From Streptomyces sp. 549 (lineage in GTDB: Bacteria; Actinomycetota; Actinomycetes; Streptomycetales; Streptomycetaceae): 64,000 nt of DNA. The position numbers were made by a program, and so were the translations under genes. The DNA lies in contig NZ_JASKMT010000011.1 in NCBI RefSeq assembly GCF_030124175.1, positions 1-64,000 on the forward strand. The letters run 5' to 3'. Numbering within the stretch: the first letter of the stretch is position 1; each line of letters begins with the position of its first letter. Shown here in pieces: positions 4,845-12,735 of this stretch. Below the pieces are notes generated by a model. It did no database searches. It was not told the origin of the DNA and saw nothing but the letters and a program-made list of their open reading frames with translations.

Positions 4845-5076
4845 GTCCAGCCTCCCGTCCGGCGGTACGGCCTCTGTTCCCCCATGAACGTTCCTGGCCC
4901 GACGGGTGTTCCCGGCAGCCCCTCCGAGGGGGTTCTCCCGGATCACCTCACGGCCTGTCACTACCGCGCTACCCTGGCGTCACGCTACGCCGACTCCGAG
5001 CCGCCACCCCAGCGGACTCGGGCACTCAACCGCCAGTCAGCCGCGGCGCGGACGGTGCCGTGCCGGAGGGGAACGC

Positions 5077-7806
5077 GTGGGTTCCGAGCAGTTCGACACG
5101 AACGAGGCAGAACACCACCGGCATCCCGGTGGCGGCTACCGCGGTCCGCTGGAGCGCGAGGCCGAACTTGTCAGCGCGCAGATCGCCGTGGACGGCCTGT
5201 ACGGTCGCGGCGGCACCGGCCCGGCCGGGGTGCCGCGCGGCGGCCGGCTGTCGTTCACCGGCCCGGCCGGAGCGGGCAAGTCCACGGTGCTCGACGAGGT
5301 GCGCCGGATCGCGGCGGACCGCCAGTGCACCGTGCTCGCCGCCAGGGGCGGCGAACGCGAGCAGGCCATCGCGTTCCACCTCGTGCGGCAGCTGCTGCTT
5401 CCGCTGCTCGCCACCTTCTCCGAGCGCGAACTGCACGACGTGCTGGGCGACTGGTACGCCATCGTCGGCCCCTGCGTGGGGCTCTGCCCCGCCGAGGAGG
5501 GCGCGACCCCCGACCAGCAGGGCGTGCGGGACGGGCTGGACCTGGTGGTGACCCGGCTCGCCGCCCGGCGCGGGCCCCTGGTCCTGCTGGTGGACGACGC
5601 CCACTGGGCCGACCACGAGTCCCTGCAGTGGCTCACCGCGTTCGCCACCCGCATCGAAACGCTGCCCGTGCTGCTCGCCACCGCCTACCGGACGGACGAA
5701 CTCCCCGCGGACGCAGCGGCGTTGAACGCTCCGGACCGGGACGCGGGCCGCCCGCTGGAACTCGCCCCGCTGACTCCCACCGCCGTCGCCGGTCTGTTGC
5801 GCGAGACGCTCGGTGCCCACGCGGACGATGCCTTCTGCCACGAGGCGTGGCTCGCCACCGGCGGCAACCCCTTCCGCACGGTCGAACTGGCTGCCAAGGC
5901 CGCGGACCGCGGCCTGTCGCCGACCCGGGAGAACGCGCTCCGGCTGAGGGAACTGGCCGACTCCGACACCGGCATCGGGCTCGTCGAGCGCCTGGACGAG
6001 CTGGGCTCCTCATCGGTCCGCCTGGCCTGGGCGGTGGCCGTGCTCGGCTCCGAGGCGACGCTGCCGCTGGCGGCGTCGATGGCGGCGCTCACTCCGCTGG
6101 AGGCCGCGCAGGGCCGTGAGCGGCTGCGGCGGGCCCGCATTCTCAAGGCCGAGGAGCCCGTCGAGTTCGTGCACCCGCTGGTCGCCACCGCCGTCTACCG
6201 TGAGGTGCCCGCGGCTGTGCGGGTCGCGCTGCACGGCAAGGCCGCCTGGGAACTGGTGGAGTCGGGGCAGGGCGCCACCGCCGCCGCCCGCCACCTCCAG
6301 GAGACGCACCCGGACGGTGACCACTGGGTGGTGGAGCACCTGCGGGCCGCGGCGCGCGAGTACCTGAGGACGGGAGCGCCGGACGCCGCCCGCCGGGCCC
6401 TGGAACGCGCCCTGCGGGAGCCGCCCATCGGGCAGGCCCGTGCCGACGTGCTCTACGAGCTGGGCAGCCCCGCGCTCATGCACGATCCGGTGGCCTCGGC
6501 CCGGCACCTGCGCTCGGCACTGGAGGAGCCGGAGGCCACGGTCGGGCTGCGGCAGAACGCCACCATGCGGCTCGCCCGGGCCCTGACCTACAGCGACCGG
6601 CTGCCCGAGGCGGTCACCGTGATGGAGGAGGAGGCCGCCCGCGCCACCGACTCCCGGGCCCGGCTGCGTCTGCTCGCCGAGCACTTCATGATGGCGGCCT
6701 TCACCGCCGAGGACGGCGGCGCCCCGGCCAGGTCGCGCCGTCTGGCACGCATCACCGAACGGCTCACCGGCCGTGACCGCACCGAGCGCTACCTCTTCGG
6801 GCTGCGGGCCTGGGACGCGATGGTCCGCGGCGAGCCGATGGCGGTGGCCCTGGAACACGCCGAACGCTCCCTCGCGCTGGGCGACATGCGGTGGACCGAC
6901 GAGGACTGGGGCTTCGAGGTCCCCACTCTGGTCGCGCTCACCTTCCTGCACTGCGACCGGCCCGACCGCGCGGACGAACTGTTCGCACGCGGCGTGGGCG
7001 AGTTCGAGCGGCAGGGTTGGCGCGGCGTGCCGCTCGCGCTCGGCTACACCTTCCTCGGCCACGTCCGCTACCGCAGCGGCCGCCTCACCGACGCCGAGGA
7101 CTTCGTCCGCGCCGGACTGCGCCTGGCGGACCGGGTCGGCCCGGCGACTCCGGTGCACTGCTCCGCGACGGCCAGCCTGCTGCAGATCCTGCTGGCCCGC
7201 GGGCGGACCGCCGCCGCCGCGGAACTCGCCGCCGAGCACGGCTTCGCCGAGCCCTTCCCCTCAGGGGTGTTCCCCGACGCCCAGGCAGTGCGCGGTGAAC
7301 TGCTACTGGCCCGCGGCATGGCCAAGGAGGCGGCCACCGACCTCGCCGAGGTCGGGCGCCGCTTCGACGCACGCGGCATGCGCAACCCCGGCTGGTGCCC
7401 GTGGCTGCCGCATCTGGCCCTCGCCACCGAGGCCACCGATCCGCAGCGCGCCCGGGACCTGGTGGCGGAGGCGGTGCGCCGCGCCGAGCGCTTCGGCGCT
7501 CCCTCCGTGCTCGGCCAGACGCTGCGGGTCGCCTCCCGGCTGAGCGAGCCCGCCCGGCGCGTCGAGACGCTCCAGCGGGCGGTCCACTGCCTGGAGCGCT
7601 CGCCGGCCGCGTCCGAACGCGCCTCCGCACTGGTGGAGTTGGGCGCCCTGCTGCGCAGGGCCGGGCGGACGCGGGAGGCTGCGGAGTGCCTCTACCGCGG
7701 TGTGGACGAGGCCGCGCAGTGCGGGGCTGAAGCCGTCGTCAGCCAGGCCCGGGAGGAGCTGGACGCCGCGGCGCTGCGCCCGCGCCGCCTCGACCCGCCC
7801 GGCTGA
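5077..7806 (+). CDS. Large LuxR-like (LAL-type) ATPase lacking the HTH domain
   Basis: A 909-residue STAND-type ATPase. Residues 60-180 hold an AAA-16 module with Walker A GPAGAGKST (62-70) and Walker B LVLLVDDAHWAD (about 168-179). The rest is a long helical, TPR-like region rich in Ala, Leu and Arg. This is the architecture of LAL regulators, but the protein stops after AALRPRRLDPPG, exactly where such proteins normally continue into a C-terminal LuxR helix-turn-helix; nothing like an HTH is readable downstream in any frame. GTG at 5077 is chosen because GGAGGGGAA precedes it. The terpene locus starts about 300 bp downstream on the same strand, so a regulatory link is possible. It may act through protein contacts or be a truncated regulator. 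Confidence 0.8.
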   Translation: MGSEQFDTNEAEHHRHPGGGYRGPLEREAELVSAQIAVDGLYGRGGTGPAGVPRGGRLSFTGPAGAGKSTVLDEVRRIAADRQCTVLAARGGEREQAIAFHLVRQLLLPLLATFSERELHDVLGDWYAIVGPCVGLCPAEEGATPDQQGVRDGLDLVVTRLAARRGPLVLLVDDAHWADHESLQWLTAFATRIETLPVLLATAYRTDELPADAAALNAPDRDAGRPLELAPLTPTAVAGLLRETLGAHADDAFCHEAWLATGGNPFRTVELAAKAADRGLSPTRENALRLRELADSDTGIGLVERLDELGSSSVRLAWAVAVLGSEATLPLAASMAALTPLEAAQGRERLRRARILKAEEPVEFVHPLVATAVYREVPAAVRVALHGKAAWELVESGQGATAAARHLQETHPDGDHWVVEHLRAAAREYLRTGAPDAARRALERALREPPIGQARADVLYELGSPALMHDPVASARHLRSALEEPEATVGLRQNATMRLARALTYSDRLPEAVTVMEEEAARATDSRARLRLLAEHFMMAAFTAEDGGAPARSRRLARITERLTGRDRTERYLFGLRAWDAMVRGEPMAVALEHAERSLALGDMRWTDEDWGFEVPTLVALTFLHCDRPDRADELFARGVGEFERQGWRGVPLALGYTFLGHVRYRSGRLTDAEDFVRAGLRLADRVGPATPVHCSATASLLQILLARGRTAAAAELAAEHGFAEPFPSGVFPDAQAVRGELLLARGMAKEAATDLAEVGRRFDARGMRNPGWCPWLPHLALATEATDPQRARDLVAEAVRRAERFGAPSVLGQTLRVASRLSEPARRVETLQRAVHCLERSPAASERASALVELGALLRRAGRTREAAECLYRGVDEAAQCGAEAVVSQAREELDAAALRPRRLDPPG

Positions 7807-8113
7807 GCCGAGCGCGCCCCTGCGCCGTGCCCCTGGCCGCTCACCGCGAGGGCTTGAGCAGGAACGATTCGCCAGTGACTGCCGGAGACGGCGCGCGGGC
7901 GGCTGCCGCGCGCCGCCCCGCGCACCACCGTGAGAGGGGTGGGGTGCCAGAGGCACATCCACCGGTTTCCGAGCCGTGGAGGCGGTGAAGGATAGCGTTC
8001 AACCGTTCGGGCCCCAGCCCCTTGAGCAGGAGCCCCCGGCACGGCACACGGCACACGGCAGCACGGCAGAGCGCGGCACGGGCTCGGCGAGCGGTGACGG
8101 AGGCGACCGCGTC
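7807..8113. other. Gap without a gene ahead of the terpene locus
   Basis: About 300 bp between the ATPase stop and the first codon of the broken prenyl synthase. I see no credible coding frame. It must hold the promoter of the terpene locus, but no convincing -35/-10 pair can be pointed out. The segment just before 8114 contains repeats of CACGGCA. Confidence 0.6.
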
Positions 8114-8783
8114 ATGACCACCACTCTCACTGACGGACAGCTCGAACCCGCTGCGATACGCGAGGCGGTCGACGTCGTACTGACCCGGTTCCTCACCTCC
8201 CGCCACGGCCGACTGGCCGCCCCGCCGCCGGCCGACGCCGTGGGCGCGCTGCGCGATCTGGTACTGGCCGGCGGCAAGCGCATCCGGCCGCTGATGTGCC
8301 TGTGCGGCTGGCACGCCGCCGGCGCCCACGGCGATCGGGAGGCGGTGCTCAACGCCGCCGCCCTGGAGCTCTTCCATGGTTTCGCCCTCGTGCAGGACGA
8401 CGTCATGGACGACAGCGCCACCCGCCGCGGCCGTCCCACCGTGTACCGCGATACCGCGAACTGGCCGAGCGGCACCGCGCCGAGCAGGTCAACGGCGACC
8501 TCCGGGACGGCAAGTGCACCGTCCTCATGGCCGTCGCGCACCAGCCGGCCGGGCCCCGGCAGCGTGCCCTGCTGCCGGGGCCGTGGGCCGGCCGACACTC
8601 ACCGCACAGGAGGCAGACGAGGTGCGCGGCGTGCTCCGCGACACCGGAGCCCTGGCGGAGGTCGAGCGCATGATCGAGGACCGGCTGCGCACGGCGCTGC
8701 TGGCCCTGGACGCGGCGCCGTTCCCCGACCACGTCCGCGTGCCGCTGCGCACCCTGGCCAGATCCTCCTACCGCAACTCCTGA
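8114..8783 (+). pseudogene. Polyprenyl (geranylgeranyl-type) diphosphate synthase, disrupted
   Basis: Three reading frames must be joined to recover a short-chain prenyl transferase. From ATG 8114 the N-terminal part is intact through GGKRIRPLM and the first Asp-rich motif LVQDDVMDDS up to RRGRPTVY. There an 8-bp tandem duplication, TACCGCGA at 8444-8451 and again at 8452-8459, shifts the frame. The next frame gives YRELAERHRAEQ, joined directly to VNGDLRDGKCTVLMAVAHQ, so roughly 100 codons of the core that normally carry the middle helices and the second Asp-rich motif are missing. A further one-base shift near 8580 leads to the normal C-terminus (PTLTAQEADEVRGVL through ARSSYRNS, stop at 8783). 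The product cannot be active. Confidence 0.88.
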
Positions 8784-8889
8784 GGTCCCGTCTCACCCGC
8801 CTCACCCGGCTCCCGCATGCCCTCAGGCCCGTCCGATGCTCAGGTCCGTCCGGATCCTCCGGTCCGCAACCGTCCCTCCAGGAGTACCG

Positions 8890-9948
8890 GTGCACCACAC
8901 CACGCAGTCGCCCACCGCAGCCCCCACAGCAACCGGCACGGCCGACCGCTACTTCCTGCCCGAACTGCCCCGCCTGCTGCCGGTGGCCTACCACCCCCAG
9001 GCCGCGCAGACGGAGTTCCGCTCCAACGCCTGGGTGCGCAGGCACCTGGGCGCCTGCTTCGACGGGGAGGCGCACCTGCTCAGACTGCTGCGCGAGCGAG
9101 TCGGCCTGTACGGGCCGCTGACTGCGCCCCTCGCCGACGACCAGCGGGTGCTCGACCTCGCCGACTTCTACCACTTCGTCGGCCTCATCGACGACCTCGC
9201 CGTCGACCACTCCGCCCTGGGAGCCAACAGCAGCGGCGCCCGGGAGGTCTTCGGCCGTGTCCTGTCCGGCTTCGGCGCGGACACCGACCCGGCGTTACCA
9301 CTGGGCCGTGCCGCCGCAGACCTGTGGCGGCGCGTCAGCCCCGGCCTCAGCCCGCGCCAGACCGACCGGTTCCGTGCCGCACTGGCGGTCTTCCTCGACG
9401 GCATCGCCGCCGAACTGCCCTTCCAGCTGGGCGGCGGCGTCCCCGACTACCGGACCTACACGGAGTTGCGGCTGGACAGCTTCGGCTGCGACTTCATACT
9501 GCTGCTCAACGAGTACGCCATGGCCGTGGACATGTCCGGGCTGCGGGAGACGGCGGCCTTCGCGGAGCTGCACGGGCACGGCATGCGGCAGATGATCCTC
9601 GTCAACGACCTGCTGTCCCTGCGCAAGGAGCAGGGCGATCCGATGAACGCCGTCCGCGTCCTGGAGCACCACGACCGCATTCCGCTGCAGCAGGCCGTCG
9701 ACCGGCTCTGCGGCCTCGTCGAACGCCACGAACGCGGTTACGTGGCCGCCCGTGACGCCCTGCTGCGCACCGCGCCGGGAAGACGGGCCGACGTCCGCGC
9801 CTACCTCACCGGACTCGACCACCTGCTGGGCGGAGCCCAGGAGTTCGAGTACCTGACACCGCGCTACTTCGGCGACGGATCGGTGTGGGACGGCACCACC
9901 TCCGGCTGGGTCGACCTGTCCGGCGGACCGGCGAGGCTGGTGCCGTGA
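8890..9948 (+). CDS. Class I terpene cyclase, probable diterpene synthase
   Basis: A 352-residue class I terpene synthase that ionises a prenyl diphosphate and cyclises the cation. Residues seen: Asp-rich motif DDLAVD (101-106, a DDxxxD variant), pyrophosphate-sensor Arg194 45 residues before the NSE triad, NSE motif NDLLSLRKE (Asn239, Ser243, Glu247), and a C-terminal RY pair in TPRYF. All catalytic elements are present, so this gene, unlike its neighbour, looks functional. GTG at 8890 is chosen because AGGAG lies five bases upstream. Codon 136 (9295-9297) is TTA, which in Streptomyces needs the bldA tRNA. The substrate is uncertain; the adjacent GGPP-synthase remnant suggests C20. The stop overlaps the P450 start (GTGA). 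Confidence 0.88.
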   Translation: MHHTTQSPTAAPTATGTADRYFLPELPRLLPVAYHPQAAQTEFRSNAWVRRHLGACFDGEAHLLRLLRERVGLYGPLTAPLADDQRVLDLADFYHFVGLIDDLAVDHSALGANSSGAREVFGRVLSGFGADTDPALPLGRAAADLWRRVSPGLSPRQTDRFRAALAVFLDGIAAELPFQLGGGVPDYRTYTELRLDSFGCDFILLLNEYAMAVDMSGLRETAAFAELHGHGMRQMILVNDLLSLRKEQGDPMNAVRVLEHHDRIPLQQAVDRLCGLVERHERGYVAARDALLRTAPGRRADVRAYLTGLDHLLGGAQEFEYLTPRYFGDGSVWDGTTSGWVDLSGGPARLVP

Positions 9949-11368: not shown

Positions 11369-12478
11369 TCAGCGGGGACGTGCGCCGGTGGTGCCGGAGG
11401 AGGCGGCGCCTGCCGGGTCGCCCTGCCGCCACCAGCGGTCCGTCGGCAGGGCGTCGGCGGCAGGCTCGAAGGGCAGCCCCGGCGGAGGGACGGCGATGCG
11501 CACGCCGGCTGCGACTGCCCCGGTCAGCGAGCGCTCGGCCGGTTCGTCCCACGGGTGCGGGGCCAGGTTGAAGGTACCCCAGTGGATGGGCAGCAGCACC
11601 CCGCCGCCGAGGTCGCGGTGGGCGTGCAGCCCTTCCTCGGGGGTCATGTGGATGTCGGGCCAGTGCGGGCTGTAGGCCCCGATCTGGATCATCGACGCGT
11701 CGAAGGGCCCGTGCTCACGGCCGATGTCGGCGAACCCGGGGAAGTAGCCGGTGTCGCCGCTGTGGAAGACGCGGTGCCGCGGACCGGCGACACTCCACGA
11801 CGCCCACAGGGTCTGCTGCCTGTTGCGCAGGCCGCGTCCGCAGAAGTGGCGCGCAGGGGTGGCGGTCAGCGTCAGGGAGCCGACGGTGGTGGACTCGTGC
11901 CAGTCGAGTTCGGCGATCCGCTCGGGCCGCACGCCCCAGCGCTCAAGGTGGGCGCCCACCCCGAGGGGCACGGCGAAGCGCACGTCGCTGCGGGCCAGTG
12001 CGCGGATCGACGGCATGTCGAGGTGGTCGTAGTGGTCGTGGGAGACGACCACCACGTCCAGCGGCCCGACCTCGGGCAGCGCGAGCGGGGGGCGGTGGAA
12101 GCGGCGGGGCCCGGCGAAGCTGAACGGCGAGCAGCGCTCGCCCCACACCGGATCGAACAGCACCCGGTGGCCGTCGATCTCGGCGAGCACCGTCGAGTGG
12201 CCGCACCAGGTGAGCCGGAGTCCCGAGGCGGGCCGCGCGGACAGGTCGGGCGTCTGCACCGGCACGGGCGAGACCGGCCGGCGGCCGTCCCGCCGCAGCA
12301 GGGCGCGCAGCATCTCCGCGCGTCCGCCCGCCGGCTCCGCCGCGAGCGGCGGGGTCGCCGGGCCGCCAGGGTTGCGGAAGGCGCCGGCCGCGGTGTCGAA
12401 GTGCGGGGACGCGAGGATGCGCCGCAGCCGCTCGCCCTCCGGTCGGGCGCCGAAGGACGCCGGTCTCAGGCCGCGCAT
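11369..12478 (-). CDS. Metallo-beta-lactamase-fold hydrolase (NAPE-PLD-like)
   Basis: A 369-residue MBL-fold protein. The metal-binding motif is VVVVSHDHYDHLD (HxHxDH), with further ligands in ARHFCGRG, FHSGDTGYF and PIHWGTFNL. The N-terminal half carries LTWCGHSTVLAEI and LFDPVWGERCSPFSFAGPRR, the pattern of the UlaG/NAPE-PLD-like group of cytoplasmic or membrane-associated phosphodiesterases. ATG at 12478 follows GGGAGG. It is convergent with the terpene locus and probably independent of it. The real substrate is unknown; phospholipase D activity on N-acyl lipids is only the family precedent. Confidence 0.85.
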   Translation of the reverse strand: MRGLRPASFGARPEGERLRRILASPHFDTAAGAFRNPGGPATPPLAAEPAGGRAEMLRALLRRDGRRPVSPVPVQTPDLSARPASGLRLTWCGHSTVLAEIDGHRVLFDPVWGERCSPFSFAGPRRFHRPPLALPEVGPLDVVVVSHDHYDHLDMPSIRALARSDVRFAVPLGVGAHLERWGVRPERIAELDWHESTTVGSLTLTATPARHFCGRGLRNRQQTLWASWSVAGPRHRVFHSGDTGYFPGFADIGREHGPFDASMIQIGAYSPHWPDIHMTPEEGLHAHRDLGGGVLLPIHWGTFNLAPHPWDEPAERSLTGAVAAGVRIAVPPPGLPFEPAADALPTDRWWRQGDPAGAASSGTTGARPR

Positions 12479-12735
12479 GGAACCTCCCGTGTACAGATGC
12501 AAGGGCAACGCCGCTGCCGGCGATTTTAGTTCCCCCGGTCCCCGCGACCGCGTAGCCGAGGCGGCGCTGCCACTGCGCACGCCGGACGTGCGGCCGTCCG
12601 CCGTCGCCGTCGTGCCCGCCCCGTGCCCGCCCCGCCCTCAGCGCCCTTGCCACCCGGAGCGGAGGGCGGGTTGCGGACTGTGAAGGTGGTGCACCTGCCG
12701 GTCCGCAGCTGTTCCAGGCATGTCAGAGTGGGCGT

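Follow-up and report, generated by a model that had tools for sequence, protein, structure and literature searches.

Gene content of the cluster and the breaks in its prenyl diphosphate synthase

The window (the whole 64,000-nt stretch of DNA analyzed here) is the start of contig C3 of the draft genome of Streptomyces sp. 549 (6.0 Mb in 72 contigs; completeness, 99.89%; contamination, 0) and has a GC content of ~73%. Four genes stand on its plus strand between positions 4906 and 11306: an AAA/TPR ATPase (4906 to 7806; Pfam AAA_16, E = 9.6e-16, and TPR), a broken prenyl diphosphate synthase (8114 to 8783), a VenA-family class I terpene synthase (8890 to 9948; 352 amino acids [aa]), and a cytochrome P450 (9945 to 11306; 453 aa; PF00067, E = 5e-75), the start of which (9945) overlaps the stop of the cyclase (9948). 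On the minus strand, a metallo-beta-lactamase-fold hydrolase (11369 to 12580; Pfam Lactamase_B_2, E = 1.9e-54), which also flanks the locus in the relative G089 (75% identity), is probably not part of the terpene pathway.

The synthase region runs from an ATG at 8114 to a stop at 8781 to 8783 and uses three frames, each with one piece of a single prenyl synthase. The N-terminal piece (8114 to 8449, plus strand) carries GGKRIRP and the first Asp-rich motif, DDVMDD. Its first 112 codons hold a PF00348 match (E = 9.8e-18; profile positions 8 to 77 of 251), and it is 59% identical to the G089 protein over 110 columns. TACCGCGATACCGCGA was found at 8444 to 8459, i.e., an 8-bp tandem repeat (TACCGCGA twice, plus strand) at which the frame changes. 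The middle piece (8460 to 8560, plus strand; boundaries approximate, set by comparing frames with the orthologues) is in the frame of 8440 and reads RELAERHRAE...QVNGDLRDGKCTVLMAVA. It contains the joint of a deletion, jumping from just past the first motif to a stretch that matches DLREGKCTVLMA of the orthologues. The deleted part, ~0.41 kb or ~136 to 138 codons relative to G089 (by arithmetic from the alignments), includes the second Asp-rich region, which is QLRDDLLGVFGD in the three orthologues, and this deletion alone would be expected to abolish synthase activity. A second frame change lies near 8560 to 8574, and the C-terminal piece (8574 to 8780, plus strand), in the frame of 8442, runs through to the stop. 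This last piece had no Pfam match at E = 0.01; it matches NCBIfam NF042416 (positions 287 to 345 of 350; E = 2.7e-5) and is 46 to 48% identical to three orthologues over 69 columns. All NCBIfam matches of the synthase pieces are under the cut-off. The comparison with orthologues thus bore out the initial annotation, which had read the gene as broken by an 8-bp duplication, a large deletion, and a further frameshift. No open frame holds a complete two-motif PF00348 domain, and by its frames the region 8114 to 8783 is a pseudogene of that family, with an intact orthologue at the same site in three relatives. It was probably once a GGPP synthase, as judged from the VenA-type cyclase that follows it.

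The 8-bp repeat is not remarkable in itself, since four exact 8-bp tandem repeats occur in the window against 2.7 expected (50 first-order Markov simulations); the one at 8444 to 8459 is of interest solely because it coincides with a change of frame, as compared with the unbroken orthologues. A second such repeat, CACGGCAG twice, occupies 8054 to 8069 in the leader immediately ahead of the broken synthase. The frame of 8114 continues for 335 codons without a stop and ends at 9121, within the cyclase gene. It overlaps the first 232 bases of that gene and could affect its translation, the cyclase start at 8890 having its own AGGAG; long open frames are common at such GC, and we conclude nothing from this one. 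A DNA search with positions 7800 to 8900 against 21 genomes, the own genome included, gave matches in 18, none longer than ~200 bases outside the window (identities, 68 to 97%), and found no second copy of the pseudogene.

The neighboring genes are free of such damage. The ~1.07-kb synthase has all three lesions, and the ATPase, cyclase, and P450, 5.3 kb in total, have none. Once one lesion has fallen in the synthase, the chance of two further ones there is ~0.03, or ~0.09 if only the cyclase and P450 are taken as neighbors (independence assumed).

The cyclase starts with a GTG at 8890 and matches PF19086 (E = 7.4e-29). Its best solved relative is VenA (7y9g; E = 8.4e-115 over residues 20 to 349 of 352), with 56% identity in an alignment of the family. 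DDLAVD, NDLLSLRKE, and the RY pair are all present, as is ELRLDSFG, which we take to hold the pyrophosphate-sensor Arg; the motif names are likewise our own presumptive assignments. Its kinship (E value and tree) and its Asp-rich, NSE, and RY motifs place the product predicted from 8890 to 9948 among VenA-type class I diterpene synthases, and by analogy it would make a cyclic diterpene from GGPP. The P450 keeps GGTETT, ESLR, and FGAGSRKCIG, so that both the heme loop and the ExxR expected of PF00067 are present.

Conservation was compared by counting changes at positions invariant among relatives, each relative being left out in turn; the cyclase set was used without VenA and the near-duplicate G305, and the P450 and ATPase sets consisted, for the relatives, of match ranges rather than whole genes. 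The cyclase changes 3 of the 97 positions invariant in ten relatives and keeps 94 (relatives, 0 to 5 changes; 0 to 5.1%), whereas the P450 changes 4 of 109 and keeps 105 with eight relatives (2 to 15 changes; 1.9 to 12.5%). In the ATPase, 51 of the 432 positions invariant in four relatives are changed (11.8%; relatives, 13 to 69 changes; 3.3 to 15.3%). By this measure, conservation of the unbroken cyclase and P450 is similar to that seen in relatives. The motifs that the initial annotation had reported in both are present, together with family-level constraint.

The ATPase is the first (5′) gene of the conserved cluster, and its homologues stand at the same place in G089, G101, Streptomyces cupreus, and G058 (loci L030, L031, L007, and L032), with 60 to 68% identity and frames that end 0 to 6 residues from its own end point. 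We presume a likeness to the large ATP-binding regulators of the LuxR type; no HTH domain was detected in it by Pfam at E = 0.01, nor in any of these four homologues (0/4; Pfam, scanned from the alignment start).

Gene order in relatives and the timing of the loss

Related cyclases were sought in four sets. Among 392 genomes of the genus, 12 matches reached 1e-40, the own gene included; 395 relatives gave 8 matches at 1e-70, one of them new (G423); contigs of other genomes contributed one (S. cupreus) of 63 candidate stretches; and plasmids yielded 39 records at E = 1e-5, with Streptomyces globisporus as the best (52%). A second sample of the genus, centered on G101, added no new relative with the cyclase. 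Neighborhoods were compared in 11 relatives, with S. globisporus alone representing the plasmid set and the weakest genus matches (G062, G152, and G285; 34 to 35%) outside the comparison.

In 3 of these 11 (G089, G101, and S. cupreus), the gene directly 5′ of the cyclase is an unbroken orthologous synthase, and five others (G128, G305, G268, G123, and G019) have another prenyl synthase within ~3.5 kb. The remaining three, G058, G423, and the S. globisporus plasmid, have no prenyl synthase near the cyclase: the nearest is ~266 kb away in G058 and, on the S. globisporus plasmid searched, ~439 kb away, while the two prenyl synthases of G423 lie on contigs other than its 38-kb cyclase contig. Neither a synthase nor a remnant was recognized between ATPase and cyclase in G058, an adjacency that reflects either an independent loss or an older state. 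Comparison with syntenic loci, which the initial annotation had put forward as a check, thus sets a dead synthase beside intact genes against three relatives with the same order and an intact synthase.

Two further features of the relatives deserve mention. In G423, locus L044:7966-10602 (minus strand) encodes a VenA-type cyclase and a P450 in one 879-aa open frame (Terpene_syn_C_2 at 91 to 283, p450 at 428 to 858), a natural cyclase-P450 fusion in another family of the class. As for the P450s, the window and G101 proteins share 67% identity, and each is less similar to that of G089 (L030:10483-11829; 61 to 63%), unlike the cyclases, a pattern that may reflect exchange or faster change in G089.

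The remnants of the synthase still resemble coding sequence. The third-position GC of the three pieces is 0.875, 0.967, and 0.928 (own cyclase, 0.915; P450, 0.949). With the paralogue on contig C14 as the outgroup, the pieces have 13 and 6 unique changes against 11 and 4 in the unbroken G089 gene. Of the residues invariant in four unbroken homologues, the N-terminal piece keeps 36 of 45 and the C-terminal piece 20 of 25; when the unbroken synthases were left out in turn, they kept 45 of 48, 48, 50, and 57 in the N region and 25 of 26, 27, 31, and 33 in the C region. Drift since inactivation therefore looks modest, and the loss looks recent relative to the split from G089. If so, unbroken cyclase and P450 genes say little about selection since.

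Other outgroups gave a less even picture. With G101 and S. cupreus, changes in the own lineage versus G089 were 15 versus 3 and 18 versus 7 in the N piece, 9 versus 7 and 11 versus 6 in the C piece, and 52 versus 21 and 49 versus 17 in the cyclase; these two may not be true outgroups, and the tests were not relied on. With G058 and G128, the differences were not significant for either the cyclase (33 versus 26 and 25 versus 23) or the P450 (48 versus 55 and 45 versus 36), and the own P450 compared with that of S. cupreus, with G128 as the outgroup, gave 46 versus 29 (P = 0.05). In the trees, the own branch is longer than that of G089 for both the cyclase (0.34 versus 0.16; node support, 0.23) and the synthase N piece (0.40 versus 0.14). 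There are two readings: G089 may be closer to G101 and S. cupreus than in the trees, or the own lineage may have been faster at both genes. Dating by synonymous change was abandoned, as fourfold-site differences in comparisons with the own genome (0.41 to 0.61) are near saturation.

Precursor supply for the cyclase

The genome has five other genes whose PF00348 matches exceed the cut-off and are free of stops; by NCBIfam, all five fall below the cut-offs. That on contig C8, best matched by a nonaprenyl-type NCBIfam model and adjoined by what we take to be NADH dehydrogenase genes, probably serves menaquinone, to judge from its sequence and surroundings. By their neighbors, the synthase on C1, which adjoins HpnE, belongs with hopanoids, and that on C2, which adjoins crtI, with carotenoids; another of the five is on C67. 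The fifth lies on C14, in a locus (L038:6774-12071) that contains DXS, an IspG-like gene (a name we assumed from its translation), the prenyl synthase, unbroken, and a class I cyclase from a different subfamily; the synthase stands between the IspG-like gene, itself after DXS, and this cyclase. It is the closest paralogue of the broken gene (51% identical to the N piece), and a tree of 22 sequences places it with the cluster synthases (0.996), the pseudogene N piece grouping with the G089 orthologue (0.73). Its nearest solved sequences are 3lk5, named GGPP synthase (225.5 bits), and then 8f8f, a farnesyl synthase (213.5 bits); the NCBIfam farnesyl/geranyl diphosphate synthase model is the best match for the C2 protein and the second for that on C14.

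We favor, with a fair degree of confidence, the reading that precursor is supplied in trans and that the cyclase and P450 are still used. It is preferred for the presence of five other synthases, the closest paralogue among them, and for the three relatives of 11 that have the cyclase without a nearby synthase. GGPP made by the synthase on C14, that on C2, or both would reach the cyclase in trans; the cyclase would bind it through its two metal motifs and cyclize it to a diterpene, which the P450 would then oxidize. Redundancy would have made the in-cluster synthase copy dispensable. G089, which kept its cluster synthase, has two further prenyl synthases only, grouping with those of C8 and C1, and so few spare enzymes fit redundancy as the cause of the loss. 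Redundancy is insufficient by itself, however, since G101 and S. cupreus kept the cluster synthase despite 10 and 7 PF00348 matches, respectively.

Alternatively, the whole cluster may be in early decay, being silent or useless, with the synthase the first gene to break and little time passed since. We consider this a minority possibility, albeit the most serious one. The coding-like third-position GC of the remnants and the small excess of change with the C14 outgroup, both pointing to recent inactivation, fit it, as does the longer cyclase branch of the own lineage. Decay of the whole would less readily explain why one gene has all three lesions and its 5.3 kb of neighbors have none, why conserved residues of the cyclase and P450 are kept at the rate of relatives, or why three relatives have the cyclase without a neighboring synthase. 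The initial annotation had held that the cyclase must use precursor from another enzyme or that the locus is decaying; supply in trans is the likelier of the two, "must" was too strong, and early decay does fit a recent loss.

It is improbable that the cyclase mainly uses FPP (or GPP), with the in-cluster synthase either no longer needed or never a source of GGPP. According to PMC10325987, VenA takes FPP and GPP besides GGPP, and the best NCBIfam model for the C-terminal piece, good also for the C2 and C14 proteins, is named farnesyl/geranyl diphosphate synthase. Yet the chain-length pocket is not narrowed: at the positions given there, Y88 and V111 are unchanged and Gly replaces T112, whereas the FPP-only variant of VenA has Trp at 112 and the GPP-only variant has Trp at 88. 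The solved sequence nearest the C14 synthase, moreover, is named GGPP synthase, though the next is named farnesyl synthase.

A sequencing or assembly artefact that hides an intact synthase is very improbable even for a draft in 72 contigs, given three different lesions (one of ~0.41 kb) in a single gene, a genome 99.89% complete with 0 contamination, and 10 of 10 other window genes matched by Pfam in one frame, the last a weak test in that these were chosen from 48 as long open frames. On that same weak count, assembly-wide frame errors are unlikely.

Within supply in trans, a more specific and decidedly tentative scheme would be a two-site pathway, in which the C14 module (DXS, IspG, and GGPP synthase) supplies the cyclase at its own locus and also, in trans, the C3 pair of VenA-type cyclase and P450, the C3 synthase having been shed as redundant. 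The product would be an uncharacterized diterpene of a subclade in which position 107 is Phe and position 112 is Gly or Ala.

The case is ordinary gene loss in a known family. It is also a clear instance of a terpene cluster that lost its precursor gene and kept the later genes, with intact orthologues and a natural synthase-less locus as flanking states; no account of this case was found among titles and abstract openings of the literature on pseudogenes, missing synthases, and cyclase-P450 fusions. For genome mining, clusters with a lost synthase should not be discarded as dead, and heterologous expression of such a cluster would need an added precursor source.

Comparison with VenA and related loci

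According to PMC10325987, VenA of Streptomyces venezuelae (PDB 7y9g) makes venezuelaene A from GGPP and also accepts FPP and GPP; residues of its pocket, W107, T112, and F185 among them, influence which product forms or which substrate is used. The window cyclase shares with it the NSE triad, the RY pair, and Y88, Y108, V111, F185, F215, F219, and F338. Unlike VenA, it has DDLAVD in place of DSFVSD and the changes Q83E, W107F, T112G, and L220I; among the positions named in the same paper, it differs at Q83, W107, T112, S116, and L220. Positions 107, 112, and 185 are Phe, Gly, and Phe in the window cyclase, G089, and G101, with Ala at 112 in S. cupreus. Except at 116, the pattern is common or nearly so to these three relatives and is thus a trait of the clade, not of the broken gene. 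From these residues, a product other than venezuelaene A is likely and its identity is not predictable. The "unknown terpene" of the initial annotation is plausible as a VenA-family product, and only as that. A VenA homologue gives the same product according to PMC12015392; being 97% identical, it is uninformative for cyclases at 56%.

The subclass described in PMC10325987 is marked by D(S/T/N)XX(X)D/E plus an upstream Glu/Gln. The window cyclase has the upstream residue (~30 residues away), a Glu at the position of Gln83, but DD where the second Asp should be absent. DD at this place (window positions ~9190 to 9210) also occurs in G058, G019, and S. globisporus, and the second Asp is replaced by N, T, or S in G089, G101, S. 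cupreus, G128, G423, G123, G305, G268, and VenA (DN in G089 and G101, DT in S. cupreus, and DS in VenA and G128). Glu or Gln stands at the Gln83 position in the cyclases of the window, G058, G089, G101, S. cupreus, and G128 and in VenA. At the second position of the Asp-rich motif, the clade offers naturally occurring alternatives to Asp in loci whose gene order is almost the same.

Among whole loci, those of G305 and G268 have cyclases ~98% identical to VenA and, like the window locus, an adjoining P450. They have two P450s and then a prenyl synthase of another clade (of these two synthases, the tree includes that of G268), whereas the window, with a single P450 and a broken synthase that belongs to a different clade, departs from the venezuelaene A cluster type. 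The C14 locus of the own genome differs in its unbroken synthase and in its cyclase of another subfamily, for which the nearest solved entries are SVS variants (133 bits) and 4okm (123 bits). The G058 locus shares the ATPase-cyclase-P450 order and the DD motif with the window, but no synthase or remnant is recognized in it. Closest in layout are the loci of G089, G101, and S. cupreus, with orthologous genes in the same ATPase-synthase-cyclase-P450 order; they differ from the window locus in their unbroken synthase and in an Asp-rich motif that is DN, DN, and DT, respectively, instead of DD.
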